Of a stretch of DNA of 64,000 nucleotides, positions 3,866 to 30,930 are shown in pieces (position 1 is the stretch's first letter; each line of letters opens with the position of its first letter). The notes below the pieces were generated by a model. That model did not search any database. It saw only the letters and a program-made list of their open reading frames with translations, and had not been told where the DNA came from. The position numbers and the translations under genes were made by a program. Origin of the DNA: Bacteroidota bacterium (GTDB lineage Bacteria > Bacteroidota > Ignavibacteria > Ignavibacteriales > Ignavibacteriaceae); the NCBI GenBank assembly GCA_021815405.1, contig JAKAGV010000018.1, positions 62,001 through 126,000 on the forward strand, read 5' to 3'.

Positions 3866-4528
3866 ATGACCGGCAGAGAATTTAAAGACATCACGTTCCA
3901 GCAGCTATCAAACATAGCTTCAGCTTTCGCAAGTCCCAAAAGACTTGAAATCCTAGACCTTCTTTCACAAGGTGAAAAAGATGTTGACTCGCTTTCAAAA
4001 GAAACCAGTATGAATTTCGCTAATACTTCCCGGCATCTTCAAATCTTAAAGAATGCGAAAATAGTCCAGACCAGAAAAGAAGGGATTCGTGTTATATATT
4101 CCCTTGCGTCGGATGAAGTAATAAAATACTGGAAAAGCCTTCAAACTCTCGCTGAGCAAAGCGCTGCAGAATTAAGGGAAGCCGTAAAAGGATTCCTTGA
4201 AGAAAGAAACGTATTTGAGCCTATCTCCATGAAAGAATTAAAGTCAAAAATAAATAAAGATGAAGTTACTATTATTGATGTCAGACCGAAAGAAGAATAT
4301 CTAAATGGACATCTGCCTGGTGCAGTTTCTATACCGATGTCTGAATTAAAGAATAAAATAAAAAACTTACCCGCCGGTAAAGAAATTATAGCTTATTGCC
4401 GCGGAAAATATTGTGTAATGGCTCCCGAAGCGGCAAAGATATTAACTGCCAAAGGATTTAAGACAAGTATTATGCAGGATGACGTTAACTCGTGGCGCTT
4501 TGCCGGACTAAAGATTGAAACGAATTAA
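3866..4528 (+). CDS. ArsR-family regulator fused to a rhodanese domain
   Basis: A 220-residue fusion. Residues 10-100 form a winged-helix ArsR/SmtB domain (LASPKRLEILDLL-like start, recognition helix NFANTSRHLQILKNA). Residues 120-215 form a rhodanese domain with DVRPKEEYLNGHLPGA and the active-site loop YCRGKYCVMA. C178 would carry the persulfide and C183 is a second cysteine in the loop. Such fusions are known and presumably couple DNA binding to sulfur or redox state. There are no ArsR-type CxC metal ligands. It is first in an operon with a second small HTH gene, a methyltransferase and a DsrE protein, and a palindromic operator lies just upstream. Confidence 0.88.
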   Translation: MTGREFKDITFQQLSNIASAFASPKRLEILDLLSQGEKDVDSLSKETSMNFANTSRHLQILKNAKIVQTRKEGIRVIYSLASDEVIKYWKSLQTLAEQSAAELREAVKGFLEERNVFEPISMKELKSKINKDEVTIIDVRPKEEYLNGHLPGAVSIPMSELKNKIKNLPAGKEIIAYCRGKYCVMAPEAAKILTAKGFKTSIMQDDVNSWRFAGLKIETN

Positions 4529-4547
4529 AATCAGATTAGGTAAATAT

Positions 4548-4838
4548 ATGATGAATCCAAAATCAAATGAGCTAATCGCCGGACTATTTTCAGATGTTCT
4601 AAACATTCAAATATTATGCTCGATTTATGATAATGAAGTTACAGCAGACGCTATTGCAAATCTGCTAAATCTAAGCGAAGAAGAAATAAAAAGCCATCTT
4701 GAAACGCTTTGCAAAATACCTCTTGTTATCAAAAGGCAAAATGGAAATAACATTGTATATGGTCTGATCAATTCTAGAGTATGTGATTCCATTTTATCGC
4801 TTAGAGATTCAATTGAATATTCGGGCAGAACAATATAA
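4548..4838 (+). CDS. small winged-helix (ArsR-like) protein
   Basis: About 96 residues (MMNPKSNELIAGLFSDVLNI...) with a predicted helix-turn-helix around TADAIANLLNLSEEEIKSHLETL, followed by a strand pair (LVIKRQNGNNIVYGLINSRV) as in the wing of ArsR proteins. The frame opens earlier at 4515, but AGG about 9 bases before the ATG at 4548 supports the later start, which also removes the overlap with the previous gene. It has no cysteine ligand motif. It may act with the adjacent ArsR-rhodanese protein. The methyltransferase start follows its stop by one base, suggesting coupled translation. Confidence 0.7.
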   Translation: MMNPKSNELIAGLFSDVLNIQILCSIYDNEVTADAIANLLNLSEEEIKSHLETLCKIPLVIKRQNGNNIVYGLINSRVCDSILSLRDSIEYSGRTI

Positions 4839-4839
4839 T

Positions 4840-5433
4840 ATGAAAGTTCGTGACAGCGGCATGCCTGAAGAATCCTACTGGGAAACTTTTTTCAACCCTC
4901 AATACATTTTTTCGAAGCTTAAATTGGATAATAAGATTAATAATGCAGCAGAATTTGGCTCCGGCTATGGCACATTTACAATTCCTGCTGCTAAAATCAT
5001 AAAGGGTACTTTGCATGCCTTCGATATTGAGCCTGAAATGATTTCTATTCTAAAAGGAAAAGTAGACAAAGAGAAAATTTCAAATATTAAAATTCATAAA
5101 ATTGATTTTGTAAAAGAAGGAACAAAGCTTAAAGACGAATCGGTTGATTATGTAATCCTCTTTAATATACTTCATGCAGAAGACCCGATTGCCTTGTTAC
5201 AGGAAGCTTACCGGGTTTTACAACGTGAAGGCAAGGTTGGTGTCATTCATTGGATTTATTCTAAATCAACTCCAAGAGGTCCCTCTCTAGATATAAGACC
5301 AAAGCCGGAACAATGCATTGACTGGATGAAATCCGCCGGATTCAAAATTGAAAGTGGAATTATTTCACTCCCGCCTTATCATTATGGGATAATTGGAATT
5401 AGAAAACAATTACACAAAAAAATCTATAAATAA
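4840..5433 (+). CDS. class I SAM-dependent methyltransferase
   Basis: About 197 residues. Motif I AAEFGSGYGTFTIPAA binds S-adenosylmethionine, the following acidic strand end is HAFDIEPEM, and motif post-II/III YVILFNILHAEDP, then AYRVLQREGKVGVIHW complete the Rossmann-fold pattern. The start at 4840 is preferred over an upstream one at 4783 because it begins one base after the previous stop and matches the usual N-terminal length. The substrate is unknown. It lacks the cysteines of ArsM, so arsenite methylation is not indicated. It sits between an ArsR-type HTH gene and a DsrE gene, so a role in thiol or sulfide detoxification is possible but is inference. Confidence 0.8.
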   Translation: MKVRDSGMPEESYWETFFNPQYIFSKLKLDNKINNAAEFGSGYGTFTIPAAKIIKGTLHAFDIEPEMISILKGKVDKEKISNIKIHKIDFVKEGTKLKDESVDYVILFNILHAEDPIALLQEAYRVLQREGKVGVIHWIYSKSTPRGPSLDIRPKPEQCIDWMKSAGFKIESGIISLPPYHYGIIGIRKQLHKKIYK

Positions 5434-5448
5434 AAATGGTTAACATAC

Positions 5449-5802
5449 ATGAAATATCTAATCATCATTAACGATGCACCTTACGGAACAGAAAAAGCAT
5501 ATAACGCGCTTCGTCTTGCTATGACTCTTCAAAAAGAATTCCCAGAAAATGAAGTAAGAATTTTTCTTATGGCAGATGCTGCTACATGTGCTTTGCCAAA
5601 TCAGAATACTGCTTCTGGCTATTATAACATTGAAAGGATGCTGAAGTCTGTATTGAATAAAGGTGGATTTGTAAAAATCTGCGGCACATGCGCAGATGCC
5701 AGAGGAATTAAAAATCTTCCATTAATCGAAGGCGCACAAATTAGCACGATGGCAGAGCTAACTGCTTGGACTGTCGATTCGGATAAAGTAATTACATTTT
5801 AA
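5449..5802 (+). CDS. DsrE/DsrF-family protein
   Basis: A 117-residue protein with the DsrE/YchN fold pattern: KYLIIINDAPYGTEKAYNALRLAMTL at the start, a central VRIFLMADAATCALP, and KGGFVKICGTCADARGI near the end. C47 and C78/C81 are candidate sulfur-carrying cysteines, as in the family where a conserved cysteine transiently holds persulfide. It is probably a cytoplasmic sulfur-relay protein. It is the last gene of the ArsR-rhodanese operon, 15 bp after the methyltransferase, so rhodanese and DsrE domains are co-encoded. Confidence 0.82.
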   Translation: MKYLIIINDAPYGTEKAYNALRLAMTLQKEFPENEVRIFLMADAATCALPNQNTASGYYNIERMLKSVLNKGGFVKICGTCADARGIKNLPLIEGAQISTMAELTAWTVDSDKVITF

Positions 5803-6164: not shown

Positions 6165-6866
6165 TTAATTCGTCTGGGTAATTAAATAAACACCACCAAG
6201 TATCACCAGCACTCCGCAAATCCTCTTTATCCACAAAATAGTTTTTGATCCTTCGCTCCAATTTAAATATTTCTGAACCTTCCCTGTTAATGTTCCAGCG
6301 CCAACAATAACCGAGCAATGCCCTATTCCAAATGCAAGAAGAAAAATTATCGCAAGGAAATAATTTGTCTGCGCAGTTTGAAAAACTACACCAAGCACCG
6401 GCGCCATGTAAGCAAACGTGCAAGGTCCTAATGCAATCCCGAATAATAAACCAAGTATTAAAGCTGCAAGCAGACCTTTGGTTTTTGTTTGTTTTAATCC
6501 AACGGTGTTCCAATCAAATTTTATTATATCTAAAAGATATAAACCGACGATGAAGAAAATTCCAGCAACAAGATAATTACCAACATTTCCAACATCTCCC
6601 ATTAAGCGTCCAAGCGATGCGGTAATAATTCCGATCAATGCAATTGTAATAAGTATTCCAATTGAAAAGATTAGCGAAATTTTAAATGTTCTTCCGATTG
6701 ATATTTTCCCTTGTGAACTTATAAAACCAACAACGAGCGGAATACTTGAAAGATGGCATGGCGAAAGAAGAATTGATAATACTCCCCACGCAAAAGAAGC
6801 CAGTACCGCTATCAAAACAGCGCCGGTCATTGCTTCGTAAAGTGTAGTAAATAAACTATCAATCAT
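6165..6866 (-). CDS. ccdA: CcdA/DsbD-type membrane electron carrier
   Basis: About 233 residues with six hydrophobic segments. It has the paired cysteines of CcdA: C37 in LLSPCHLSSIPL and C149 in ALGPCTFAYMAP. The protein carries electrons from cytoplasmic thioredoxin across the inner membrane to periplasmic thiol proteins. The frame is open to 7028, but the upstream part translates a dispersed palindromic repeat. The ATG at 6866 is preceded by AAAGGA and gives the normal family length. The secreted thioredoxin gene upstream (7130..7525) is the obvious partner. Confidence 0.9.
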   Translation of the reverse strand: MIDSLFTTLYEAMTGAVLIAVLASFAWGVLSILLSPCHLSSIPLVVGFISSQGKISIGRTFKISLIFSIGILITIALIGIITASLGRLMGDVGNVGNYLVAGIFFIVGLYLLDIIKFDWNTVGLKQTKTKGLLAALILGLLFGIALGPCTFAYMAPVLGVVFQTAQTNYFLAIIFLLAFGIGHCSVIVGAGTLTGKVQKYLNWSEGSKTILWIKRICGVLVILGGVYLITQTN

Positions 6867-6887
6867 AAAAATCCTTTTTGAATAGTT

Positions 6888-7017
6888 GTCATTGCGAACG
6901 AGCCTGCATGTCGGTAGAGGGTGTAGCAGAACTACTTGGCTGTCATTCCAGTGAAAACGTGGATCTATTATTTCTACATTTTCGGACAAACTGGATTCCC
7001 ACTTTCGTGGGAATGAC
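6888..7017. repeat. two dispersed repeats between ccdA and a thioredoxin gene
   Basis: From 6888 there is a copy of the repeat family beginning GTCATTGCGAAC. At 6942..7017 there is a copy of the other family: GTCATTCC... followed by a perfect hairpin ending GGGAATGAC. Both families recur in many gaps of this window. The second one creates a false N-terminal extension of ccdA. Confidence 0.75.
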
Positions 7018-7129
7018 AGCCTAAACATTGGTGCGACAGACTCGGCAGACAGGTCTTTGAGCGAAGCAATTTCATTTTTTTAGATTGCTTCATCTCAATA
7101 AAATCGGAACTCGCAATTACTGTTTAGAT

Positions 7130-7525
7130 TCAGCCTTTTATGTCTAATTTAGCTCCTTTGCTTTGCAATATTTTATCCACCTCTGCTTCCGGATAAAATC
7201 CCTCATGACGATAAAATTCTTTTCCATTTTTATCAAGAAAAATTTGAGTTGGGATTAGTTTAATTCCGTATTTTTCAGCATACGGTCTTTGCTCTTGCGT
7301 CCATACATCATAAAAAATAACTTTTACCTGATTGCCGTATTTCTTCTCAATGTTTTTCATAACTGGCTGCATCATCCTGCAAGGGATACAATTTACCGAG
7401 CCAAGCTCAATGAATGTAACCTTAGGTTTAACTGCGCTGTTCTTCTTTTCTTTTGATTGAGCGGAAATATTAATTCCGATAAACAAAATTATAAGTAAAG
7501 TTGATATTAGAATTTTTGTATTCAT
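7130..7525 (-). CDS. secreted thioredoxin-family protein
   Basis: 131 residues with a signal peptide (MNTKILISTLLIILFIGINI, cleavage near SAQS) and a thioredoxin domain carrying the active site C46-IP-C49 and the cis-proline region LIPTQIFLD. It should act in the periplasm as a disulfide reductase or isomerase. It is separated from ccdA by a repeat-filled gap of about 260 bp but is on the same strand, and CcdA is the known type of electron donor for such proteins. The target is unknown. Confidence 0.88.
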   Translation of the reverse strand: MNTKILISTLLIILFIGINISAQSKEKKNSAVKPKVTFIELGSVNCIPCRMMQPVMKNIEKKYGNQVKVIFYDVWTQEQRPYAEKYGIKLIPTQIFLDKNGKEFYRHEGFYPEAEVDKILQSKGAKLDIKG

Positions 7526-7570
7526 TTTGCCTTCTCTATTTTTAATTTATTTTCTAATTATTTAGTTCTG

Positions 7571-7655
7571 AAATTGCGAAGGAGTCTTCGGCTGAAGCAA
7601 TCCCAAACTTAAAATATGAGATTGCTTCGCTCCCAAAGCATTGCTCGCAATGACA
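7571..7655. repeat. dispersed repeat, GATTGCTTCG/CGCAATGACA family
   Basis: An imperfect inverted repeat between two thioredoxin-fold genes. It has the recurring ends GATTGCTTCG... and ...CGCAATGACA, seen also near 6888, 9014, 10126 and 46914. Confidence 0.65.
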
Positions 7656-7665
7656 ACAAATTTTT

Positions 7666-7905
7666 TTAATTTTCTTTTAGCCAGTTGAGAAGTTGATCAT
7701 CTTTAGGAATAATGCCGCTGCTTTTTAACTTTTCATTTATTACCAAACCAGGCGTCATCATTATTCCATATCCCATCATTTCTTGAATGTCTTCAACTTT
7801 AATTACTTCTGCTTCAAGATTGTTTTTACTGATTAAGTCTCTAACTTTTGCCTCAAGAGATCTGCACTTGGAGCAGCCGGTGCCGAGAATTTTTACTGAA
7901 GTCAT
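7666..7905 (-). CDS. small thioredoxin-fold protein (redox-active disulfide protein type)
   Basis: 79 residues, only the core of a thioredoxin fold, with active site C11-SK-C14 (GTGCSKCRSL) and the MMTPGLVINEKL strand that carries the cis-proline. Such mini-thioredoxins occur beside ArsP/SO_0444 permeases and arsenic genes. A close paralogue sits in the arsenic operon at 18569..18826 and shares the YGIMxTPGLVIN block. It is probably cytoplasmic, as no signal peptide is seen. Its start overlaps the stop of the gene before it by four bases, so it is translated with that gene. Confidence 0.88.
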   Translation of the reverse strand: MTSVKILGTGCSKCRSLEAKVRDLISKNNLEAEVIKVEDIQEMMGYGIMMTPGLVINEKLKSSGIIPKDDQLLNWLKEN

Positions 7906-8216
7906 TTTTTCTCCTTATTAATTTTTTGAATAATCTTTTCTCTGATTAACTCTGCCGAAGGTACGCCGCCAGGATAAAATCTACATGCAAGTTGTGGATT
8001 CTCTGGCACAGAAGCACCTACAATATCTTCACCATTAATCAACAATGTTGGCGAGCCAATAAATCCAACTCGCTTTGCAGTAACTTCATCTTCTACTAAG
8101 ATTTCTTTTAAGTCTATTTTATCTTCTAGTCCTTTAATAGCTTCTTTAAGATTGCCGCTCATTTTTTTATGATTTGGACATCCTTCAAAATACTGGAAAT
8201 CAAGTTTTATTTTCAT
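7902..8216 (-). CDS. thioredoxin-fold protein with CP motif, function unknown
   Basis: 104 residues. The start KLDFQYFEGCPNHKKM resembles DF-family (seleno)proteins and other thioredoxin-fold proteins where a single cysteine (C13) replaces the CxxC pair. GFIGSPTLLINGEDI has the cis-proline strand, and a second cysteine, C78, lies in QLACRFYPGG. It is probably a cytoplasmic redox or metal-binding protein. It overlaps both neighbours by four bases, which places it firmly in the redox operon. The exact family is uncertain. Confidence 0.75.
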   Translation of the reverse strand: MKIKLDFQYFEGCPNHKKMSGNLKEAIKGLEDKIDLKEILVEDEVTAKRVGFIGSPTLLINGEDIVGASVPENPQLACRFYPGGVPSAELIREKIIQKINKEKK

Positions 8217-8539
8217 TTATTCTCTACTAAAATTTCTAAAGAATTTGCAATTGTATCATTAACCGTTGCTTGTTTCATATAACGGGCAACTTGCATTGCT
8301 TCAACAATCTCGTCGTTTGTAACTCCGTTTTGTTTTGCCATATTGGTCCACATTTTAGTACAAGTATCACTACCTAATGCGGCGGCAACTCCTATTCCAA
8401 TTAGCATTTTATATTTATTAGGTAACTTTTGATATTTCTCATTTTCAAAGATGAGAGATTTTTCTTCCATTTGATTCTGAGCAAATTCCGGTGCAAATAG
8501 CTTTAGTAATTCCATCGGGGTTTTTTGATTTATTGACAT
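8213..8539 (-). CDS. AhpD/carboxymuconolactone decarboxylase-like protein
   Basis: 108 residues, all helical, with the pattern of the CMD/AhpD family (LPNKYKMLIGIGVAAALGSDTCTKMW, then NGVTNDEIVEAMQVARYM). AhpD proteins use a CxxC pair for peroxidase reduction. Here only C60 remains and the usual second cysteine and histidine are replaced, so the catalytic chemistry is unclear. A disulfide-reductase helper role is suggested by the thioredoxin-rich operon. It overlaps the next gene by four bases. Confidence 0.8.
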   Translation of the reverse strand: MSINQKTPMELLKLFAPEFAQNQMEEKSLIFENEKYQKLPNKYKMLIGIGVAAALGSDTCTKMWTNMAKQNGVTNDEIVEAMQVARYMKQATVNDTIANSLEILVENK

Positions 8540-8548
8540 TGTTTCTCC

Positions 8549-8950
8549 TTAATGTAATTTTTCAGTGTGGTCAATTATTGTTCCATCAATAACCGCTTTA
8601 ACAGCATCATCTATTTTTCTTATGTCTGTTACAACTGGTTTATTATTTAATTGAAGCATACTTTGATAAGCACCTGCGCCCATGCCGCGTGCAAGCAATA
8701 TTTTGCAATCCTTAATTGCTTCAGCCATACTAACATGTTTGTTGTGCGATGATTCATCAAAGCCGTGCCGCTCATTTGAGTGGTGATGTTCTTCTTGAGC
8801 AAAATTATGATGCCCCATTTTTTCGCGTCGTTCTCTTTTAACTATCTTGCCATTTTCAATTGAAAGCACTTCATAATACATTGCTCTTCCAAAATGCTGA
8901 CTAATAGTTTCGCCGTCATCTGTTACTGCTGCTACTTTGTAATTTTCCAT
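8549..8950 (-). CDS. NifX/NifB-like cofactor-binding domain protein, His-rich
   Basis: 133 residues matching the dinitrogenase iron-molybdenum cofactor-binding fold: KVAAVTDDGETISQHFGRAMYYEVL at the start and KDCKILLARGMGAGAYQSML then PVVTDIRKIDDAVKAVIDG at the end. A histidine-rich insertion lies in the middle (MGHHNFAQEEHHHSNERHG). No nif genes are present, so this is one of the many stand-alone family members in anaerobes and probably binds a metal or an Fe-S cluster. Its place in the redox/permease cluster suggests metal handling. Confidence 0.85.
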   Translation of the reverse strand: MENYKVAAVTDDGETISQHFGRAMYYEVLSIENGKIVKRERREKMGHHNFAQEEHHHSNERHGFDESSHNKHVSMAEAIKDCKILLARGMGAGAYQSMLQLNNKPVVTDIRKIDDAVKAVIDGTIIDHTEKLH

Positions 8951-9013
8951 TTTCTTTTTCCTTTATTTGATTAATTCTAAATTCATTCAAGTGCATCTTA
9001 AAAAATATCATTG

Positions 9014-9047
9014 GATTGCTTCGAGACTATCGTCTCTCACAATGACA
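9014..9047. repeat. dispersed repeat, short copy
   Basis: A compact hairpin-forming copy of the GATTGCTTCG...AATGACA family (GAGACTATCGTCTC forms the tip), located between the NifX-like gene and the next thioredoxin-fold gene. Confidence 0.65.
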
Positions 9048-9068
9048 CTCCTTTTAGATTTTCGAGAT

Positions 9069-9626
9069 TCATTCATCCCAAAAATACATTCTTGCTTCAA
9101 GGGAATCAGGATACTTTTGCTGAATCTCTTTCATCGTTTTCATAAATGTACTTTTATCTTTTGTCCTTATGTAATTTGAAATTCCATTTTGCGCCAACAA
9201 CTTTGGAAGCAAAGGATTGTTGTTTTTAAATTGATCAATTTCTTTATTCATAACTTGAGAAGCTTCGGCATATTTTCCTTTCGGTATCATTGCATCCGCA
9301 TAACCAAGCCTCAAAATAATTCTGAACTCATCCGCCGGCAGATATCCGTTAAAATTATAATATGATTTCCCGGTATGGTCTAAAAAATAAAACGAAGGCG
9401 TCCAGTAAGCGGCAAGCTCGCGCCTTATATCTCTGTCTTTTATTAAATCAAGTTTGAGAAGAACAAACCACTCGTTCATTTCTTCTTCGACTTTCGGATC
9501 CGGATAAGTTTCGGCATATAATTTTTTGCAGCCGCCGCAGCCGTCCATTTCAAATTGAAGCAGAATCGGTTTATGAGATTTTAATGATTCTTCTTTTGCC
9601 TCATCAAGATTTTTTAACCATTCCAT
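9069..9626 (-). CDS. thioredoxin-fold protein with CGGC active site
   Basis: 185 residues. The N-terminal half is a thioredoxin-like domain (HKPILLQFEMDGCGGCKKL, active site C30-GG-C33, and YWTPSFYFLDHTGKS with the cis-proline). The C-terminal half is helical and TPR-like (YAEASQVMNKEIDQF...KYPDSLEARMYFWDE). No signal peptide is seen, so it is cytoplasmic. It is the fifth thioredoxin-fold gene in this cluster. It resembles the Thioredoxin_7/DUF255 style of protein, but the partner is unknown. Confidence 0.82.
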   Translation of the reverse strand: MEWLKNLDEAKEESLKSHKPILLQFEMDGCGGCKKLYAETYPDPKVEEEMNEWFVLLKLDLIKDRDIRRELAAYWTPSFYFLDHTGKSYYNFNGYLPADEFRIILRLGYADAMIPKGKYAEASQVMNKEIDQFKNNNPLLPKLLAQNGISNYIRTKDKSTFMKTMKEIQQKYPDSLEARMYFWDE

Positions 9627-9642
9627 AATTCATCCTTTCAAA

Positions 9643-10092
9643 TTATTCTCTCACTACGGTAATTTTAGTATCAGCTTTAATATTGTCTGTAACTGGGCAG
9701 CGGCTTTCAGTTTCTTTAAGCCACGCCTCTTTTCCCTCTTCAGACGCGCCGGGAATATCTGCTTTAACAGTCACAATAATATTTTGAAACCCAGCACGCT
9801 CTTCAAAAGAGCAGCCGAGGAAAGTACAGGGATTCATAACACCTTCAATTTTTACTTTCATGCTGTTCAACTTCAATCCTTTTTGCCGCGCAATTTCGTG
9901 TCCGGTAACATTTAAGCAGCCGGCAAGCGACATAAGCAATACTTGAATTGGCGAAGGACCTTCGTCAGTTCCACCCATTCCTTTCGGCTCGTCAATTATT
10001 AAATTGAATTTACCAGCATGAATGTTCATCTTTGTCGGGTTTTCACTTTCGCCGGTTATCAATACTTTCATTTCTCTTTTTTGTGTTGCCAT
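9643..10092 (-). CDS. OsmC-family peroxidase
   Basis: 149 residues with both reactive cysteines of OsmC/Ohr proteins: C59 in LLMSLAGCLNVTG and C132 in ESRCPVTDNI. C89 and C94 are additional cysteines. The family reduces organic hydroperoxides with thiols and acts in the cytoplasm. The GGTDEGPSPIQVLL segment is the usual substrate-pocket strand and helix. It is 16 bp upstream of the CGGC thioredoxin gene on the same strand, which could supply its reducing power. Confidence 0.9.
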   Translation of the reverse strand: MATQKREMKVLITGESENPTKMNIHAGKFNLIIDEPKGMGGTDEGPSPIQVLLMSLAGCLNVTGHEIARQKGLKLNSMKVKIEGVMNPCTFLGCSFEERAGFQNIIVTVKADIPGASEEGKEAWLKETESRCPVTDNIKADTKITVVRE

Positions 10093-10125
10093 ATTTTCTT
10101 ACTTACTTTGCTTTTTACTGTTAAT

Positions 10126-10253
10126 AGATTGCTGCGAGATTATCGTCTCTCGCAATGACTGTATCACTGTTTCTGTCATTGCGAACAAAGTGAAGCAATC
10201 TACTGATTTTTAAATAATTTCTTCGCCTCGATAGAATCGAGACTCGCAATGAC
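10126..10253. repeat. tandem copies of the GATTGCT/GCAATGAC repeat
   Basis: At least two imperfect copies fill the gap between the OsmC gene and the secreted thioredoxin-like gene: one ends in CTCTCGCAATGAC near 10160, then comes GTCATTGCGAACAAAG and GAAGCAATC, then GACTCGCAATGAC near 10253. Confidence 0.65.
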
Positions 10254-10281
10254 TATCTCCATTTTAGTTTTTAATTGACTT

Positions 10282-10956
10282 TCATTCTTTAACATTTAGT
10301 ATTGAGACTAACTTGTCATACAATTTTTCAACTCTTACAAACCTTTTTATTTCTTTATTGGTTGAATCGACTAAAATCACCGCCGGTATAAATCCAACTT
10401 CATACTCATTTTGCAAATCATAATTTGAATATGAATCCACAACCGCATAATCAAACGAATCCGGATTCTCTTTAAGAAGCTTTTGAACCTCACATTCCTG
10501 CCGGTAACACATTTCAAGTGTGCATTCGCAAGACATTGATGTTGAGAAGATGATTATTTTTTTCTTTGGGAAATTCTTTAATTCATCTAAAAAATATTTC
10601 CCAAAGACAGAGTTGAATTCATTATTTACAGCATGAAAAACTTTCTTTAATGTATCAACTTCCGGTTTGTTATTATAGAATTTTTCGAATGCCTTGAATG
10701 ATTTGATTAGTTGACTGGATTTGAGTTTATAATCTTTTTTGTCAACAACGGAATCTGCATATATATTTTTATCTTTCAGTTCTACAAATAATTTATCAAG
10801 CTCACTTACAAATAATTTATCCGGTAATCTGTTTTCATAAAAAGAAATATTGATTTGTGAAATCTTTTCTCTTGTCTCTTTAATCAAATCAGATGTTGAA
10901 TCTGCTTTTATTAAGCTGGTAAAAATCAATATAGTTGCAAGCAATTTTATCAGCAT
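10282..10956 (-). CDS. secreted thioredoxin-like protein with a CxCxxxxC cluster
   Basis: 224 residues with an N-terminal signal peptide (MLIKLLATILIFTSLIKA). Residues 20-130 form a helical region. The C-terminal part is thioredoxin-like: KKIIIFSTSMSCECTLEMC, a cluster of C143, C145, C150 and C155, then YEVGFIPAVILVDSTNKEI with the cis-proline. It is probably periplasmic. The cysteine cluster is more like a metal or metalloid site than a simple CxxC. It starts five bases after the permease stop, so the two genes are cotranscribed. No exact family is recognised. Confidence 0.75.
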   Translation of the reverse strand: MLIKLLATILIFTSLIKADSTSDLIKETREKISQINISFYENRLPDKLFVSELDKLFVELKDKNIYADSVVDKKDYKLKSSQLIKSFKAFEKFYNNKPEVDTLKKVFHAVNNEFNSVFGKYFLDELKNFPKKKIIIFSTSMSCECTLEMCYRQECEVQKLLKENPDSFDYAVVDSYSNYDLQNEYEVGFIPAVILVDSTNKEIKRFVRVEKLYDKLVSILNVKE

Positions 10957-10960
10957 AATC

Positions 10961-12061
10961 TTAATAAATTAAATTAAAAAGATAACCGACGATAACTATT
11001 CCAACGGCTACAACACCAACGAATGTTAGAATCAACGGCAGCTTCAATACTTTTTTTAGAATAATCGCTTCCGGGAAAGACAGACCTATAACCGACATCA
11101 TAAATGCCAGCACTGTTCCAAGCGAGGCGCCTTTCTCAAGCAAGGCTTGAACTATAGGAATTATTCCAGCAGCATTTGAATACATCGGTACACCAAGCAT
11201 AACGGCAATCGGAACAGACCACCATGCGCTTTTTCCCATCAAGCCAGCCATAAAGTTTTGCGGCACGTAACCATGAATACCCGCGCCGACTGCAATTCCG
11301 ATTACAATATAAATCCAAACCTTGCCGACAATCTCTTTAACAGCATCTACACCGGCAGTAATTCTTTCTGCAAAGGTTGGTTTCACTTCTTCCATTTGAA
11401 CTTGACCGGCTTTTATTTTATAAACCCAATCTTCAACATACTTTTCAAGTTTTAATCTTCCGATTACAAAGCCGGAAATCATCGCTATAATTAATCCGGT
11501 GGACATATATAAAAGCGCTGTCTTCCATCCGAACAAACCAAAGAGAAGAACAACTGCAACTTCATTTATCATTGGTGCAGCAATCAAAAATGAAAATGTA
11601 ACTCCAAGCGGAACGCCGCTTTCTACAAACCCAAGGAACAGCGGTATTGCTGAACAAGAACAGAACGGTGTTACAATACCGAGCAGACTTGCAGAAACGT
11701 TTCCAGCAAAAAGCTTTTTACCGCCGAGCATTTTTCTAGTTCTTTCCGGTGAGAAATAACTTCTTACAATACCAACAGCAAAAACAATTAATATTAAGAG
11801 CATCAATACCTTCGGCACTTCAAACACAAAAAACGAAACAGCACCTGTAATATGAGTACCTTTAGTCATACCAAATATCGAGTAAACTAAGAAATCCGAA
11901 ATAGTTTCTAAATTGATATAAAGGAAAAACCACAGCGGCAGCAATAAAAACGGTAGTGTTGTTCTATTTAATTTTATTAAGATTCTACTCTTCTTCTCAG
12001 AATCTTTATTTATTTTTTCTTCAATTTCTTTTTCAATTAAATAATCATCTAATTTGTTCAT
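10961..12061 (-). CDS. permease, ArsP/SO_0444 family
   Basis: 366 residues with eight to ten membrane segments. The signature TPFCSCSAIPLFLGF near the middle of the first half, and GVPMYSNAAGIIPIVQALL in the second half, are those of the two-repeat ArsP/DUF318 permeases. Family members export methylated or other organic arsenicals, or copper and zinc. The CSC pair would bind the soft substrate. It is preceded by its own palindromic site at 12146..12165 and by a same-strand arsR gene, so it is probably induced by a metalloid. The arsM gene elsewhere in the window would provide methylated arsenic as substrate. Confidence 0.88.
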   Translation of the reverse strand: MNKLDDYLIEKEIEEKINKDSEKKSRILIKLNRTTLPFLLLPLWFFLYINLETISDFLVYSIFGMTKGTHITGAVSFFVFEVPKVLMLLILIVFAVGIVRSYFSPERTRKMLGGKKLFAGNVSASLLGIVTPFCSCSAIPLFLGFVESGVPLGVTFSFLIAAPMINEVAVVLLFGLFGWKTALLYMSTGLIIAMISGFVIGRLKLEKYVEDWVYKIKAGQVQMEEVKPTFAERITAGVDAVKEIVGKVWIYIVIGIAVGAGIHGYVPQNFMAGLMGKSAWWSVPIAVMLGVPMYSNAAGIIPIVQALLEKGASLGTVLAFMMSVIGLSFPEAIILKKVLKLPLILTFVGVVAVGIVIVGYLFNLIY

Positions 12062-12145
12062 TTCTTTGAATCCTCTTTGCTAATCCAATAATGGTATTAT
12101 CAGTACGTTGTATTCATTATTATTAAACCAAAATCTGTTTCAATT

Positions 12146-12165
12146 ATATGAGTGATTACTCATAT
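12146..12165. promoter_or_regulatory. ArsR operator upstream of the permease
   Basis: A perfect 8-bp inverted repeat (ATATGAGT-GATT-ACTCATAT) lies 85 bp before the permease start and 17 bp past the arsR stop. A close variant lies upstream of that arsR at 12575..12592, which suggests one regulator binds both. Confidence 0.72.
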
Positions 12166-12181
12166 TACACTTTAAAAAATT

Positions 12182-12517
12182 TTATACTTCAGCTAACTCT
12201 TTAACTAGTTCTATTTTCTTCAAAGCTATTTTTTCAGCAAGGTCAAGAATTTGCAAAATTCTTTCGTCGGCGATATTGTATCTAACCATCAATCCATCTT
12301 TCCATGAAACGAGTATCCCGCTTTTCTCCATGCTTTTAAGGTGGCGTGAAAGGTTCGATTGCTCAAGTCCAAGCAGAGGCATCATTTCACAATTACACAA
12401 CGCTTGTTTCTTAAGAGTTTTGATAATCTTTATTCTATTGGGATGACATATTGCAGACAGCACATCTGACTGTAAATCTTCTCTGGTCTTTCCGGAATTA
12501 TAAGTTTTACTTGTCAT
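12182..12517 (-). CDS. arsR: ArsR-family metalloregulator
   Basis: 111 residues, a single winged-helix domain (AICHPNRIKIIKTLKK, recognition helix LEQSNLSRHLKSMEKSGIL). The LCNCEM motif gives C41 and C43 at the helix that forms the As(III) site in classical ArsR. The family releases DNA when arsenite or related thiophilic ligands bind. The inverted repeats at 12146..12165 and 12575..12592 are the likely targets, controlling the permease and this gene. It differs clearly from the other arsR genes in the window. Confidence 0.92.
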   Translation of the reverse strand: MTSKTYNSGKTREDLQSDVLSAICHPNRIKIIKTLKKQALCNCEMMPLLGLEQSNLSRHLKSMEKSGILVSWKDGLMVRYNIADERILQILDLAEKIALKKIELVKELAEV

Positions 12518-12574
12518 ATTTTAATTCTCTTTCACTAAACATTATAAATATATACACCAACTTATCGTATGACT

Positions 12575-12592
12575 ATATGATTCATTACTCAT
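12575..12592. promoter_or_regulatory. second ArsR operator, upstream of arsR
   Basis: ATATGATTCATTACTCAT matches the permease operator at 12146 except for two bases, and lies 58 bp before the arsR start. Probable autoregulation. Confidence 0.6.
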
Positions 12593-12778
12593 GAAGCATG
12601 CCAATAACGATTATAGATAATTCAATATTTTTTAGAGATTTTTTTAAGCATTATCTAAATAAAAAGAATATTTAGTTTTTGTTTTATCATATTTGAAAAT
12701 TAAAAATCCAATAGTATAAATGAGTTCAATCTAAAAAGCTAAGTGTCGGGATCGATCCAAAAGTAATTTAAGATGTAC

Positions 12779-12848
12779 GTCATTTCCACAAAAGTGGAAA
12801 TCCATTTTATTTTGGCACAAATAGATTCCCATTTATACGGGAATAACT
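12779..12848. repeat. degenerate palindromic repeat (two hairpins)
   Basis: A worn copy of the two-hairpin repeat: GTCATTTCCAC-AAAA-GTGGAAATC, then 20 bp, then GATTCCC...GGGAATAAC. It lies in the 990-bp gap between arsR and the proton ATPase. Confidence 0.65.
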
Positions 12849-12973
12849 TTTTAAACATGACACATATAGGTTTAGAAAATAATCTCGCAATGCAGTGATT
12901 TGAGAGTGGTGTTTATTTATTATAGCATGAATTGATTAGGCATAGCAGCAGCAAAATAAATGAATATATTTTT

Positions 12974-13128
12974 CATGTAACTGAAGTTACGCCAAAAGAC
13001 CTTTTGATGCCTGGTACTGTCATTCCCACGAAAGTGGGGATCTATTTTTTGCATATTTTAGCTTACTGGATACCCGCTTTCGCGGGTATGACACTTTCCC
13101 AAAGCCAGTTTGCGTAACTTCAGTCATG
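12974..13128. repeat. MITE-like element with terminal inverted repeats
   Basis: A ~155-bp unit bounded by inverted ends (CATGTAACTGAAGTTACGC at the left, the complement starting GCGTAACTTCAGTCATG at the right, with a 2-bp gap). Inside are two hairpins starting GTCATTCCCACG and ending GCGGGTATGAC. A second full copy is at 23431..23580. Translating through it gives a chance open frame (VIPTKVGI...PAFAGMT type), which is not a gene. Confidence 0.72.
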
Positions 13129-17161: not shown

Positions 17162-17479
17162 CTAAATCCTCCTTTCATCTTTTTTTTCAATTTCTTCTCT
17201 AATAATTCTATCAGATAGCTTACCGCCGGATTGAATTATCTTATCATTTAAAGTCACTACCGGAGTTTGTAGTTTTTCTTGTTGAATACCTATGATGATT
17301 TCTTTGAATAAAAAAGATTTGGGAGAAAAAATTTCAATCAGTTTCATATCAAAAATTTTTCCTAAGCGGTTGTTTAATTTTTTTGAAATTAAATCAACTG
17401 CATATTGCCAGCTTTTTTCGTAGCTGCAAGCTCCAACCGGCATAACAAATATTTTTATATCGAATTTCTTATTCTTCAA
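17162..17479 (-). CDS. hypothetical thioredoxin-fold protein at the end of the ars operon
   Basis: 105 residues, not firmly recognised. The ending LQTPVVTLNDKIIQSGGKLSDRIIREEIE looks like the cis-proline strand and last helix of a small thioredoxin fold. The start IKIFVMPVGACSYEKSWQYAVDLI keeps a single cysteine (C18) where CxxC would be. It follows acr3 by 10 bp on the same strand and is the last gene of the arsenic operon. It may act as an arsenic-delivery or redox accessory protein, by analogy with ArsD, but it has no ArsD cysteine motif. Confidence 0.6.
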   Translation of the reverse strand: MKNKKFDIKIFVMPVGACSYEKSWQYAVDLISKKLNNRLGKIFDMKLIEIFSPKSFLFKEIIIGIQQEKLQTPVVTLNDKIIQSGGKLSDRIIREEIEKKDERRI

Positions 17480-17489: not shown

Positions 17490-18545
17490 TTAAGCTGGCT
17501 TCACTGCAACAAAATATTTTTTCTGAAACCATAAGGCTACATTCACCAAGCTTATCATAACAGGAACTTCTACAAGCGGACCAATAACCGCAGCAAATGC
17601 TTCGCCGCTGTTTATTCCGAATACGGCAACTGCAACCGCAATGGCTAGTTCGAAATTGTTGCTTGCAGCGGTAAATGATAATGTTGTAGTTTTTGAATAA
17701 TCCGCACCGATTTTCTTTCCCATAAAAAATGAAACGAAAAACATTATAACAAAATAGAACATAAGCGGTATCGCAATACGAACAACATCCAATGGTATTT
17801 TTACAATGAATTCACCTTTCAGCGAGAACATTACAATAATTGTAAACAAAAGAGCAATCAAAGTAATTGGAGAAATCTTTGGAATAAATTTTTGCTGATA
17901 CCATTCTTTGTTTTTCAATTTTATTAATGTGAAACGTGTAATTATTCCGGCAATAAATGGAATTCCCAAATAAATAAAAACGCTTTCTGCAATTTGACCG
18001 ATCGTAATATCTACTTTAAATGTTTTCAATCCCAATGCCGAAGGAAGAACAGTTAGAAACACATAAGCGTAAATAGAAAAGAATAATACTTGAAATATTG
18101 AGTTGAACGCAACTAAACCGGCGGCATACTCGGTATCGCCTTTTGCAAGTTCATTCCACACAATAACCATCGCAATGCAGCGCGCAAGACCAATCATAAT
18201 TAATCCCGCCATATATTCCGGGTAGCCTTGCAAAAATATTATTGCTAATAAAAACATTAATATTGGTCCGATTATCCAGTTTTGAATTAGCGAAAGTGAG
18301 AGCACCTTAACATTTTTAAAAACGTCTCCAAGTTCTTCATATTTAACTTTGGCAAGCGGAGGATACATCATCAATATCAATCCAATTGCAATGGGAATGT
18401 TAGTAGTGCCGCTCTGAAACTTATTCCAGAAATCAACAATGCCCGGGAAAAGATATCCGGAGAATACCCCGATAAACATCGCAAGAAAAATCCAAAGAGT
18501 TAAATATCTATCGAGGAAAGATAACTTCTTAGTTATGTTACTCAT
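17490..18545 (-). CDS. acr3: ACR3-family arsenite efflux transporter
   Basis: About 351 residues and ten membrane segments. [51 protein letters not shown] (with the essential cysteine of the family in TM4) and [18 protein letters not shown] identify Acr3, which extrudes As(III) by proton antiport. The frame opens at 18560, but the ATG at 18545 has GGAG nine bases before it. The operon order is arsR, arsC, mini-thioredoxin, acr3, hypothetical, which is a complete arsenate reduction and export pathway. Confidence 0.95.
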
Positions 18546-18568
18546 TCTACTATTCTCCATACTAAAGG

Positions 18569-18826
18569 CTAAATATTTTCTTGTGCAATAGCATTCATAA
18601 GCCAGTGCGTTAATGTTGTTTTAGTAGGCAGCTTTCCGCTTAATACTACTTTCCCATTTATTACAAGTCCCGGTGTACTCATTATTCCGTAGCTCATTAT
18701 TTCTTTGAAGTCAGTTACTTTTTCAATTACTGCATCAATCCGGTTTTCAGATGTTACTTCACGGCAAAGCTTTTCTAAATTCAAACAATTTGTACAGCCA
18801 GAACCGAGAACTTTTATATATAACAT
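18569..18826 (-). CDS. small thioredoxin-fold protein of the ars operon
   Basis: 85 residues with active site C11-TN-C14 ([10 protein letters not shown]) and the [16 protein letters not shown] strand. It is a clear paralogue of the mini-thioredoxin at 7666..7905. It sits between arsC and acr3 and starts two bases after the arsC stop. Because this ArsC is thioredoxin-dependent, this protein is a good candidate for its reductant, though that is inferred from position only. Confidence 0.9.
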
Positions 18827-18827
18827 T

Positions 18828-19250
18828 TTAATTCCTTTCTAATTCAGACAGATAAAATTCATAGAAATCTTTTTTTATTTCCTCTCTTACTTTTCTAAAC
18901 ACAGAAAGAATTTCTTCTTCTGTTCCGGTGGCTTCTGCGGGGTCTTCAAATCCCATGTGAAGCCGGTTAGAAACTTTTCCTACAAATACCGGACATGTTT
19001 CTTTTGCATTGTCGCAAACAGTAATTACATAATCAAAAGAATCTCCTAAAAATTGCTCAACGCTTTTCGGCAAGCTTTTACTTAAATCAATTCCAACTTC
19101 ATTCATTACTTGTATTGCCCGCGGATGAACTTGTTTGGATGGATTTGTTCCGGCAGAATAAACATCCAATTCGGAATCAAACGATTTCAAAAATCCTTCC
19201 GCCATTTGACTGCGGCAGCTATTGCCTGTGCAAAGAATTAAAATTTTCAT
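18828..19250 (-). CDS. arsC: arsenate reductase, thioredoxin-coupled
   Basis: 140 residues of the low-molecular-weight phosphatase fold. The P-loop is C7-TGNSC-R13, with catalytic C7. The relay cysteines C79 and C86 (ITVCDNAKETCPVF) match the C82/C89 pair of the staphylococcal enzyme, so reduction is through thioredoxin rather than glutathione. FEDPAEATGTEEE holds the general-acid aspartate. It reduces As(V) to As(III) in the cytoplasm for export by Acr3, two genes downstream. Confidence 0.95.
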   Translation of the reverse strand: MKILILCTGNSCRSQMAEGFLKSFDSELDVYSAGTNPSKQVHPRAIQVMNEVGIDLSKSLPKSVEQFLGDSFDYVITVCDNAKETCPVFVGKVSNRLHMGFEDPAEATGTEEEILSVFRKVREEIKKDFYEFYLSELERN

Positions 19251-19302
19251 GTACTCCTACTTATATTTTGCTAACTATCGAAATGTAGAATAAAAAAATA
19301 TA

Positions 19303-19659
19303 TTACCTCCCGCATACTACATTTCTATCTACCTTTTGAATTTTCTGTTTATCCGAGATAATTACACTATCATCTGAAATCCAGAAATCAAGTGTCGAAA
19401 GGACAGATGAGATTCTTTGGTCAGACGGTCTAGGGTTGATCATATAATTAACCCACTTACCATCCTTTTCTTCAATAATAAATCCGGTGTCTCGTAATAT
19501 GCTGAGATGCTTTGAAACAGTCGAAGTTGCTAATTTCAGAACATCGGTTATTTCACAAACACAGAGAGATTTAGTTTGAAGAATCTTCAGAATTCTTAAT
19601 CTGTTTGTGTCTGAAAGAGCTTTGAACAATCTTGTATTTTCTTTAATTGATGCAGCCAT
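19303..19659 (-). CDS. arsR: ArsR-family arsenite-responsive repressor
   Basis: 118 residues. The winged helix (LFKALSDTNRLRILKILQ, recognition helix LATSTVSKHLSILRDTGFI) carries the classical SLCVCEI site with C33 and C35, the arsenite ligands of ArsR. It is 52 bp upstream of arsC on the same strand and heads the operon. A promoter with an overlapping inverted repeat at 19683..19714 lies just before it, which fits autoregulation. A tail of about 20 residues (KIQKVDRNVVCGR) with an extra cysteine follows the domain. Confidence 0.95.
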   Translation of the reverse strand: MAASIKENTRLFKALSDTNRLRILKILQTKSLCVCEITDVLKLATSTVSKHLSILRDTGFIIEEKDGKWVNYMINPRPSDQRISSVLSTLDFWISDDSVIISDKQKIQKVDRNVVCGR

Positions 19660-23594: not shown

Positions 23595-24401
23595 TTATTC
23601 TTTATATCCCACTACAGTAATACTAAAAATTCCTTTTAAATTTTCTTTATATTCTTTCAACCCTTGTTCAGTAAGATATTCTTTCAATAATTCTCCAGGT
23701 AATTCAATCTTCTTTGCCTTTTTTATTTCGATATCTTTGAATCCCGCATTTTCTATTTTTTGAAGATACTCATCCTGCCGCAATGCTCCTGATACACAAC
23801 CCGCATAAAGTTCTGCCGATTTCTTTAATTCTTCTGTCATTTCTCCATGTATCACTACATCGGAGACACAAAAATGCGCGCCGGGTTTAAGAATTCTGTA
23901 AATTTCTGCAAACGCTTTTTGTTTATCCGGAACAAGGTTCAAAACACAATTACTGATTACGACATCAGCAGTATTGTTGTCAATCGGCATTGCTTCGATT
24001 TCGCCAAACTTAAATTCAATATTTGAATAACCCGATTTTTCTTTGTTCTTATTTGCCTTATCAATCATCTCTTCGGTCATATCAATTCCGATTACTTTTC
24101 CTTTCTCTCCTACAATTGACCGTGCAACAAAAACATCGTTACCGGCGCCGCTGCCAAGGTCAACTACTGTATCGCCTTTTTTTATTCCGGCATATTCGGT
24201 CGGCATCCCACAGCCAAGACCAAGGTCAGCATCTGCAACGTATCCATTCAGATTAGAATAGTCATCTTGAAAAACTGTGTAATCACTTTTATCCGGTGTA
24301 CAACAACTTGTGGGTCCGCAGCATCCAGCGCTACCGGCGCTTTTAGCAATCTCGCCATATTTGTTTTTAACTATTAACTTGATTTCTTCCGGTGTATTCA
24401 T
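23595..24401 (-). CDS. arsM: arsenite methyltransferase
   Basis: 268 residues. The SAM-binding motif is DTVVDLGSGAGNDVFVA. The three cysteines that bind As(III) in ArsM are in place: C64 (GLGCGMPTEY), C152 (ISNCVLNLVPD) and C202 (YAGCVSGALR). Near the N-terminus there are also CC pairs in SAGCCGPTSCCTPDKSD, common in this bacterial subgroup. It methylates arsenite using SAM in the cytoplasm. It is 22 bp downstream of its own arsR, apart from the main ars operon, and may feed the ArsP-like permease at 10961..12061. Confidence 0.94.
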   Translation of the reverse strand: MNTPEEIKLIVKNKYGEIAKSAGSAGCCGPTSCCTPDKSDYTVFQDDYSNLNGYVADADLGLGCGMPTEYAGIKKGDTVVDLGSGAGNDVFVARSIVGEKGKVIGIDMTEEMIDKANKNKEKSGYSNIEFKFGEIEAMPIDNNTADVVISNCVLNLVPDKQKAFAEIYRILKPGAHFCVSDVVIHGEMTEELKKSAELYAGCVSGALRQDEYLQKIENAGFKDIEIKKAKKIELPGELLKEYLTEQGLKEYKENLKGIFSITVVGYKE

Positions 24402-24423
24402 GGTTTAATCCTTTCGTTTATTT

Positions 24424-24741
24424 TTAACAATTACAAATAATTGAATATAATTTATCCATTTCTTTTTTTGCTTTGATAAGAGTTTTATTATTGATGCAAT
24501 AACAAACTTTTGGTCCGTCTATCTCGCCATCAATTAAACCTACCCGCTTTAATTCTTTCAAATGCTGCGATACAGTTGATTGCGACAACGGAAGCTGTTC
24601 AACAATGTTTCCCACCATACATGAATTCATTGAAGTTAATATTTTAAGAATTCTAATTCTTGCCGGATGAGCCAATGCCTTGGCAATATCCGCCAGCCAC
24701 ATATCTTCTTTCGTAAATTCTTCTTTCTTTGAAAATGCCAT
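24424..24741 (-). CDS. arsR: ArsR-family regulator of arsM
   Basis: 105 residues. Winged helix with [17 protein letters not shown] and recognition helix [19 protein letters not shown]. The cysteines differ from classical ArsR: C41 alone at the usual CxC place, a CYC pair (C80, C82) in the wing, and CNC at the very end (C103, C105). A wing and C-tail site resembles other ArsR subtypes where metal-site cysteines have moved. GAGGA precedes the start and a palindrome lies at 24765..24780. Confidence 0.92.
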
Positions 24742-24941: not shown

Positions 24942-25532
24942 ATGCCAAGAGAATCAACAGACGTAAGACAAGAACAGATTAAGAAAGCTGTACTTGAAAT
25001 AATCGCTGACGAGGGGCTGAACAATGTTTCTACCAGAAATCTTGCTAAAAGAATCGGCTTAACTGAAGGCGCAATATTTCGGCACTTCCCCACAAAGCGC
25101 GATATTATAAAAGGAATAATGGATGACGTGGCTAATGGACTTGTTGGGCAATTGCGCAGCATTGCTTTAAGCCCGGTAAAGGCTGAAGACAAACTGTTTG
25201 ATTTCTTGTGTAAGCATGTTACTTACCTCAAAGAAAATAGGGGCATTACTATACTTTTATTTTCCGAGGCGGCGCATCTTGGCGACAAGGAGTTAAAAGA
25301 TAAATTAAGTCAGATTTTATCCGAACAAAAGCAGCTCGTTTCTAAAATTGTTAAAGACGGAATAGCGGAAGGAGTCTGGGATAAGAATGTCAACGCTGAA
25401 GATATTGCCGTTATCTATATGGGCATACCTATAACATTTAATATTGAGCTGGTTTTAAATAAAAGCGGTTTGAACATGAATAACTTCTGTAAAAGAATGT
25501 TTGCTTTGATTTTGAGGTCATTAAAAAAATAA
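24942..25532 (+). CDS. TetR-family transcriptional regulator
   Basis: 196 residues. The N-terminal helix-turn-helix is IKKAVLEIIADEGLNNVSTRNLAKRIGLTEGAIFRHFPTKRDII, split as in all TetR proteins. The rest is the helical ligand and dimer domain (TILLFSEAAHLGDKELKDKLSQIL is like AcrR/SlmA-type C-domains). Matching palindromes before its own gene and before the next gene mean that it most likely represses itself and the FmdE-TauE-porin genes. The ligand is unknown. Confidence 0.9.
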   Translation: MPRESTDVRQEQIKKAVLEIIADEGLNNVSTRNLAKRIGLTEGAIFRHFPTKRDIIKGIMDDVANGLVGQLRSIALSPVKAEDKLFDFLCKHVTYLKENRGITILLFSEAAHLGDKELKDKLSQILSEQKQLVSKIVKDGIAEGVWDKNVNAEDIAVIYMGIPITFNIELVLNKSGLNMNNFCKRMFALILRSLKK

Positions 25533-25550
25533 AAAATTTACCCAATTATG

Positions 25551-25568
25551 TAAGTAATTGTTTACTTA
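25551..25568. promoter_or_regulatory. TetR operator before the FmdE operon
   Basis: A perfect 7-bp inverted repeat with a 4-bp centre (TAAGTAA-TTGT-TTACTTA), 24 bp before the FmdE start. It has the same half-sites and spacing as the site in front of tetR. Confidence 0.75.
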
Positions 25569-25591
25569 TCTTGATAGAAAGGAATGAAAAA

Positions 25592-26269: not shown

Positions 26270-26278
26270 GAGTAGAAA

Positions 26279-27052: not shown

Positions 27053-27074
27053 AATAAATAATGGATGCTATAAA

Positions 27075-28085: not shown

Positions 28086-28120
28086 GGTTAATTTCATAGG
28101 AAAAAGTTTGGAGAAATAAA

Positions 28121-28290
28121 ATGGCACGGTTATCAACTAAAGATAAAGATCCCCGGGCATCCTTTGGTTTACCTTGCAATAATTCTGGAACCAATAGTTG
28201 AACTGCCTATACTTCTTATTTTATCCCGCTTATTGTTAGGATTAAAAACGCATTTGTGGAAGACTAAAACTTCAACACAAACGGTTTAAA
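28121..28290 (+). pseudogene. remnant of a membrane-protein gene
   Basis: Between the first porin and the second TauE there is a short region with a ribosome-binding site (GGAG) and ATG at 28121 that stops within 30 codons. A second frame (28152..28290) reads HPLVYLAIILEPIVELPILL and ends LGLKTHLWKTKTSTQTV. It looks like the C-terminal helix and tail of a permease after a frameshift. The parent family cannot be named. Confidence 0.35.
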
Positions 28291-28330
28291 TGAAATTAAA
28301 ATAAAAAGTAAAATATAAGGATAAAAATTT

Positions 28331-29092: not shown

Positions 29093-29121
29093 AAAGAAGA
29101 TTAACAATGAGAGAAATTTAT

Positions 29122-30123: not shown

Positions 30124-30138
30124 TAATATGTTCAAATA

Positions 30139-30162
30139 GATTCCCGCTTTCGCGGGAATGAC
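30139..30162. repeat. single palindromic hairpin of the MITE family
   Basis: A perfect 24-bp palindrome (GATTCCCGCTTT and its complement-type continuation CGCGGGAATGAC) just before the second FmdE gene. It is the internal hairpin of the MITE-like family found alone. Confidence 0.75.
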
Positions 30163-30180
30163 AATTTAGGAGAAACAAAA

Positions 30181-30783: not shown

Positions 30784-30795
30784 AAAATTATGTCA

Positions 30796-30877: not shown

Positions 30878-30930
30878 TTTTCTATGTTAATAATGAACTA
30901 TTTCAATTAACTAACAAAAGGAAAAATAAA

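Follow-up and report, generated by a model that had tools for sequence, protein, structure and literature searches.

The described systems closest to the locus considered here belong to arsenic resistance. ArsP is reportedly a methylarsenite efflux permease (so described by Chen et al. in 2015), and the ArsEFG set is said to go back to Chen, Zhang and Rosen in 2019. A trio made of a mini-thioredoxin, an exported thioredoxin and a CcdA-type membrane protein was proposed to serve ArsC, according to the accessible part of Castillo & Saier (2010; PMC2963123). We analysed a 64,000-nucleotide stretch of an Ignavibacteriaceae genome (GCA_021815405.1, contig JAKAGV010000018.1, positions 62,001 to 126,000), referred to as the window, and in it a minus-strand block (6165-12517) of ten open reading frames (ORFs) and arsR. 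An initial annotation had listed ten same-strand genes plus ArsR; all were found, all on the minus strand, and most score over the cut-offs of their families. The block is real and is linked to arsenic. We give a probability of roughly 60% to the reading that it is an arsenic-resistance block in which a PF03773 permease is served by its own inner-membrane thiol relay.

The permease gene (10961..12061, minus strand) encodes a PF03773 (ArsP-type) protein (ArsP_1 252.3 bits, cut-off 32.3) with the pair C134-x-C136, and both cysteines are kept in 97 of 97 aligned relatives. No other PF03773 gene was found in its 4.97-Mb genome. Of the 59 genomes searched, 22 (its own included) have an orthologue with at least 70% identity, and the 80 named public loci span Ignavibacteria, Bacteroidia, Smithella-type deltaproteobacteria, one spirochaete and Aminicenantes. 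The relay is encoded by three genes on the same strand. Its first part is a cytosolic mini-thioredoxin (7666..7905), assigned to the ArsE/MTH895 family (TIGR00412 95.6 bits, cut-off 62; PF13192 89.2), with cysteines present in 111 of 112 and 112 of 112 sequences. The second part is a CcdA-type membrane protein (6165..6866), which belongs to CcdA/DsbD_TM by its PF02683 (DsbD_TM) score (45.6, cut-off 27.1) and by two membrane cysteines, C37 and C149, which all 22 aligned sequences share. Its start is most likely at 6866 rather than 7028, the 54 extra residues being the translation of a dispersed repeat. The third part is an exported-type CIPC thioredoxin (7130..7525; PF13098 48.7 bits), with CxxC in all 42 aligned sequences. 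Exported-type N-termini, called by a simple hydropathy rule rather than a signal-peptide predictor, were found in 61 of 62 CIPC thioredoxins, 28 of 28 ArsF proteins and 1 of 143 mini-thioredoxins. Of the ArsEFG operon, only the ArsE family is present in the window, and the other two places are taken by other families: the CcdA-type protein scores 52.9 with the ArsG model NF040495 (cut-off 200), and the CIPC thioredoxin gives no match to the ArsF model NF040494 up to E 0.1.

These genes recur with the permease. We compared 81 loci, the window and the best 80 of at least 436 confirmed matches, picked by permease similarity and many of them on short contigs. Within 5 kb of the permease, a mini-thioredoxin gene was identified in 79 loci and a CcdA/ArsG-type gene in 62 (61 stand-alone; the other, L066, a full-length DsbD), as were ACR3 in 46, ArsC in 37 and ArsM in 18. 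Thus, for the core, the idea that relatives carry the permease without any helper fails, and the dedicated thiol and electron chain tied to an arsenic-type permease that had been suggested is supported. Beyond 5 kb (437 kb of flanks, compared with 644 kb near the permease) mini-thioredoxin was found in one locus and CcdA in one. A relay gene adjoins the permease, on the same strand and with a gap below 400 bp, in 66 of the 81 loci. Where the sequence extends 6 kb or more on each side (35 loci), a mini-thioredoxin is always present, and 30 of these loci carry a stand-alone CcdA or ArsG too. Thioredoxins matching the CIPC profile lie within 5 kb in 40 loci, a count that takes in other thioredoxins; the CIPC motif itself was found within 6 kb in 31, three of them lacking CcdA/ArsG. 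The reverse test agrees: of 31 stand-alone CcdA genes in relatives, 25 have a PF03773 permease no more than 10 kb away, with the second, long permease of genome G040 omitted, and for two of the six misses a permease is 19-23 kb away on the same contig. Among the DsbD-type matches listed, which served as a control, 0 of 61 have such a permease at that distance. Counted from the permease, CcdA is within 10 kb for 16 of the 23 proteins of the short type and for 9 of the 15 of the long type. The grouping goes beyond chance, because parts of the block recur together in other loci.

The pairs thioredoxin plus CcdA and ArsF plus ArsG are two matched versions of the relay that occupy the same slot. 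In CcdA loci the partner is a CIPC thioredoxin in 25 of 25 and the ArsF motif occurs in none, whereas of 34 ArsG loci 26 have the ArsF motif and one has a CIPC thioredoxin. The ArsG-ArsF pairing was scored by motif; with a stricter adjacency motif it amounts to 25 of 35 genes, and NCBIfam identifies ArsF in one of the ten cases missed, L110. The exchange is clearest in Smithella-type loci, where L076 has the order arsR, mini-thioredoxin, permease, CIPC thioredoxin, CcdA, ACR3 and L110 has arsR, mini-thioredoxin, permease, ArsF, ArsG, ACR3. Locus L081 has the order of L110, except for a reverse-strand ORF ahead of ArsF. Between L076 and L081 the permeases are 93% identical, the ACR3 proteins 94% and the mini-thioredoxins 78%, whereas CcdA and ArsG share only 23%. 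Bacteroides luti has arsR, ArsE, ArsF, ArsG, permease, ArsC and ACR3, in this order, with scores of 118 for ArsE (cut-off 62), 109 for ArsF (60) and 311 for ArsG (200). On a quickly built permease tree, in which 19 of the 78 inner branches bear a star and short contigs account for many of the "none" labels, the ArsG and CcdA labels need at least three changes. An Aminicenantes locus, L091, carries a third kind of CcdA that is nearest DsbD (83.6 bits; PF02683 92.7), together with a CIPC thioredoxin. Two ORFs (2702-3286 in L121, about 194 amino acids; 8534-9178 in L134, about 214 amino acids) have an ArsE-like start and lie just before ArsG, and may be ArsE-ArsF fusions.

From this gene content and these conserved cysteines we infer the following scheme. 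The permease would export trivalent (organo)arsenicals, among them perhaps methylarsenite or other trivalent organoarsenicals. The cytosolic ArsE-family mini-thioredoxin would pass electrons to the CcdA-type protein via its cysteine pair, and the CcdA-type protein would pass them on to the exported CIPC thioredoxin. The latter would keep periplasmic thiols reduced, possibly on the permease side and on SecCxC, an exported-type protein of the same block. The cytosolic CGGC, DF and AhpD-like proteins would be optional, and may bind or reduce arsenic-blocked thiols. ArsR is expected to repress the block from a palindrome ahead of the permease gene.

The scheme allows a direct test of the nature of ArsG, arsenical pump or electron carrier. 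In ArsG, C30 and C147 are invariant (34 of 34; the alignment holds 34 of 35 sequences, L104 being left out). The CcdA and ArsG profiles are homologous (98.7%), and hhalign places the first membrane cysteines of the two in register and the second offset by two residues. Both ArsG proteins that were tested match Pfam DsbD families over cut-off. The first Foldseek match of the ArsG model (predicted local distance difference test score, pLDDT, 73.6) is the nuclear magnetic resonance structure of a CcdA membrane electron transporter, with probability 1.00, TM about 0.56 and E only 0.099, and the fold match is read from Foldseek rank and probability. VIA-align of the ArsG model against CcdA gave Z 8.1, a value shared with NQR/RNF membrane subunits and lower than the level of trust advised for helical models; nothing useful came from searching PDB profiles with the alignments of CcdA and ArsG. 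Given the shared cysteines, the profile homology and the fold match, we therefore propose that both versions of the relay move thiol electrons outward. In the competing account, As(III) or organoarsenic(III) is brought to the exporters by small thiol proteins such as the mini-thioredoxin, and CcdA/ArsG is itself an exporter. It fits the printed description of ArsG as an efflux transporter (PMC9144182, accessible part) and its NCBIfam name, efflux permease. However, CcdA and ArsG each have two invariant cysteines next to prolines and have exported-type thioredoxin-like proteins as partners, a simple pump not being expected to have an exported thioredoxin partner, and the first solved-structure match of ArsG is the CcdA electron carrier. 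We thus hold the chaperone-and-pump account to be unlikely. Our wider proposal is tentative, and we put it at somewhat less than even odds: ArsG would be a CcdA-type carrier and not a pump, two interchangeable relays would serve this PF03773 branch, the resistance ascribed to ArsEFG would come from the relay, and SecCxC would be a new periplasmic member specific to these permease loci in Ignavibacteria. Should ArsG prove to be a carrier, a dedicated periplasmic electron supply would be part of arsenic resistance, and the annotations of ArsG and ArsF would have to change.

The same genes could instead support arsenate reductase, with the mini-thioredoxin and relay recycling ArsC and the permease a bystander. 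Such operons carry arsC in 7 of 8 cases (Castillo & Saier, PMC2963123, accessible part), and in the window and many relatives a mini-thioredoxin gene lies between arsC and ACR3; this separate mini-thioredoxin adjoining ArsC may well serve ArsC. However, the window block itself has no ArsC, and for 10 of the 30 complete relay loci a search confined to the window's own ArsC and ACR3 families turned up nothing within 6 kb. Five of these ten are Marinifilum and therefore not independent. From the ten loci it follows that the relay tracks the permease better than it tracks arsenate reductase. An exported thioredoxin would also not serve a cytosolic ArsC, and for that reason the 2010 authors themselves doubt transmembrane flow, in the accessible text (PMC2963123). 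Support of ArsC by the relay is thus rather improbable. Less probable again is a generic soft-metal or thiol-stress island for Cu, Zn, Hg, selenium or sulfur species. Its support comes from sub-threshold NCBIfam relatives, namely a Cu/Zn exporter and selenoprotein-linked families, and from sulfur-transfer genes nearby (DsrE, rhodanese-ArsR, and a YeeE-like gene in L207). However, ACR3 and ArsC are the commonest of the neighbours sought after the relay and ArsR genes. Several observations weigh against a relay that serves an arsenical permease. The window permease falls below both NCBIfam equivalogs that it resembles, with 142.2 for the SaoE model NF040736 (cut-off 325) and 98.9 for the SO_0444 Cu/Zn exporter model NF033936 (cut-off 300), and its substrate is therefore not fixed by family. 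ArsM, the presumed maker of methylarsenite, is near the permease in less than a quarter of the loci. Nineteen of the 81 permease loci show no CcdA/ArsG; the flanks are complete in four of these and also in L066, whose sole such gene is the full-length DsbD. Several of the loci without CcdA/ArsG, among them L035, L036 and L044, are from the window's own genus, on stretches of 16-20 kb, and the permease can therefore do without the relay. Of 247 genomes of the phylum, five have ArsG over cut-off, four of these with a PF03773 gene within 1 kb and one (G303) with none; PF03773 is present in 114, and therefore most PF03773 genes there are without ArsG. We still prefer the dedicated relay, which links a recurring, hitherto unexplained set of thiol proteins with arsenic-type permeases.

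The remaining proteins of the block are less regular companions. SecCxC (10282..10956, minus strand) is an exported-type protein with a helical N-terminal part, a probable thioredoxin fold and an invariant CxC, and it is a concrete target without an assigned family. Matches were found in 12 of 97 genomes (own included), all 12 adjoin the permease or the relay, and all 12 have an exported-type N-terminus. A PF03773 gene is on 11 of the 12 stretches (partial in G033, at a contig end), the stretch in G088 carries ACR3, ArsC, ArsM and CcdA, and ACR3, ArsC or ArsM is on 8 of the 12. C143 and C145 are present in 12 of 12, C150 in nine and C155 in one, so that of the CxCxxxxC motif initially proposed only CxC is kept in relatives. 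Apart from CxC, one proline is invariant, which we take to be the thioredoxin cis-Pro position. The SecCxC model has a thioredoxin-like order of strands and helices at low confidence (pLDDT 59.1), its fold list is headed by thioredoxins, none at E 0.001 or below, and its best PDB profile match is a thioredoxin (E 0.0057). The earlier count of five thioredoxin folds thus stands in part: three proteins pass family cut-offs, SecCxC and the DF-family protein do not, and SecCxC is placed among the thioredoxin folds by weak profile and model evidence. The DF-family protein (7902..8216) is thioredoxin-like just under the cut-offs (NF049942 65.4, cut-off 70; PF13192 21.2, cut-off 24.8); it had been named for a CP motif, and it has two invariant cysteines, C13 and C78 (10 of 10). 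The block also encodes a CGGC thioredoxin-fold protein (9069..9626; PF13098 45.5 bits; CxxC in 6 of 6), an AhpD/CMD-like protein with a single cysteine (8213..8539; PF02627 (CMD) 48.0 bits; C60 in 5 of 5), a His-rich NifX/NifB-C-like protein (8549..8950; PF02579 (Nitro_FeMo-Co) 50.4 bits) and an OsmC-family protein (9643..10092; PF02566 73.7 bits), all on the minus strand. Exported-type N-termini were found in none of these families (DF 0/11, AhpD-like 0/6, CGGC 0/8, OsmC 0/3, NifX 0/4).

The ten genes had been taken for one coherent combination; they are not one conserved unit. Near the permease in the 81 loci (window included), DF was identified in five, NifX in three, SecCxC in two and CGGC in two, and the AhpD-like and OsmC genes only in the window. 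Among 44 relay loci gathered (window included), CGGC is in six, DF in five and AhpD-like in four. The 63 loci surveyed for accessories were picked for holding one of the genes, and the shares are therefore not frequencies. Elsewhere in the same order, SecCxC, CGGC, AhpD-like and DF genes are again present in permease/relay loci, several of which have a longer PF03773 permease. The sets vary (SecCxC-AhpD in L207, SecCxC-CGGC-DF in L208), and none of the loci examined has a larger block than the window. The idea that the helpers belong to an unrelated second permease was dropped: in long-permease loci the same relay and, in most cases, ars genes are present too, and thus the whole looks like one modular system. 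OsmC was dropped as a core part, as its three strong matches are the window and G094, near ars-type genes, and G037, which is not; OsmC and the NifX-like gene are only weakly linked to ars genes. DF was dropped as specific to ars loci, having matches elsewhere, e.g., in L214 and in a second copy in the window's own genome (G000:C23). In L207, two small membrane-type proteins are encoded between mini-thioredoxin and DF (8464-9547), the first a PF04143 (YeeE-like) sulfur transport protein. An ArsC-like protein, scoring far lower than the usual ArsC, is encoded directly downstream of CcdA in L213, L216, L225, L231 and L235; that of L216 has 209 amino acids and the motif CTHNSRRS.

The arsR gene (12182..12517, minus strand; PF01022 (HTH_5) 44.4 bits, cut-off 22) is separated from the permease gene by a gap that contains a candidate ArsR operator (12146..12165), a perfect inverted repeat with 8-bp arms and a 4-nt loop that was equalled by 52 of 2000 letter shuffles. 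A second operator annotated near 12575 was dropped, as it is unconvincing by itself (1378 of 2000 shuffles as good), and across the window the operator motif is no more frequent than chance would give (11 of 100 shuffles). Five of the nine gene junctions in the block measure -4 to 16 bp; the other four are 118, 140, 189 and 263 bp, each containing dispersed repeats. These repeats lie at 6867-7129, 7526-7665, 8951-9068 and 10093-10281, with more upstream of the block at 12640-13120, and some are translated as protein by naive ORF calls. Both minus-strand terminator-like matches in the block fall inside genes. The window also has separate arsR-arsC-mini-thioredoxin-ACR3 genes (17490..19659, minus strand) and an arsR-arsM unit (23595..24741, minus strand), and the block is thus one piece of an arsenic island. 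A 105-amino acid protein adjoining ACR3 (17162-17479) has only a sub-threshold DUF1462 match, and relatives of it were found in the ars loci L218, L223 and L229. Plus-strand genes at 3866-5802 encode an ArsR-rhodanese fusion, a small helix-turn-helix protein, and an S-adenosylmethionine-dependent methyltransferase and DsrE; the last two (4783..5802) are convergent with the block, and the same pair adjoins the permease in L041 and CcdA in L213. Positions 24942-41511 hold two FmdE genes, two TauE genes and an RND efflux set, and GC is 0.42 at 36-40 kb. Genes of the same kinds are present on the Sulfuricella denitrificans plasmid pSCD (L227; identities 35-41% for FmdE, 30-35% for TauE, 33% for the RND set), which also carries ArsM, ArsC, a thioredoxin, a CcdA 56% identical to that of the window and, by annotation, OsmC.

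The initial annotation had not recognized a described pathway in this block, yet the relay core is known. The operons of Castillo & Saier (2010) contain the same three core families in an ars setting; in the accessible part of that account there is no tie to the permease and no accessory set, whereas the window has both. The permease tie and the two-version relay are new as far as our searches of the open-licence literature show, where we found no published account of the shared slot or of ArsG as a carrier. The ars operon of Melioribacter roseus (PMC3534657) resembles the window in having ArsR, a permease, ArsC, a small redox-active disulfide protein and an arsenite pump, although no CcdA or exported thioredoxin is mentioned in the accessible text. 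The window permease shares PF03773 and the conserved C(S/T)C motif with ArsP, and its motif TPFCSC fits cluster 2 as defined in the accessible part of PMC4435449. With CcdA/DsbD carriers the relay shares PF02683, two invariant membrane cysteines and an exported thioredoxin partner, although its client would be an arsenic permease locus and not cytochrome c maturation. The likeness to ArsEFG is in the make-up of the set, a mini-thioredoxin, an exported-type thioredoxin-like protein and a DsbD-type membrane protein, and in Bacteroides luti ArsEFG directly precedes a permease orthologous to that of the window. The difference is that the window has a CIPC thioredoxin in place of ArsF and a CcdA-type protein in place of ArsG.

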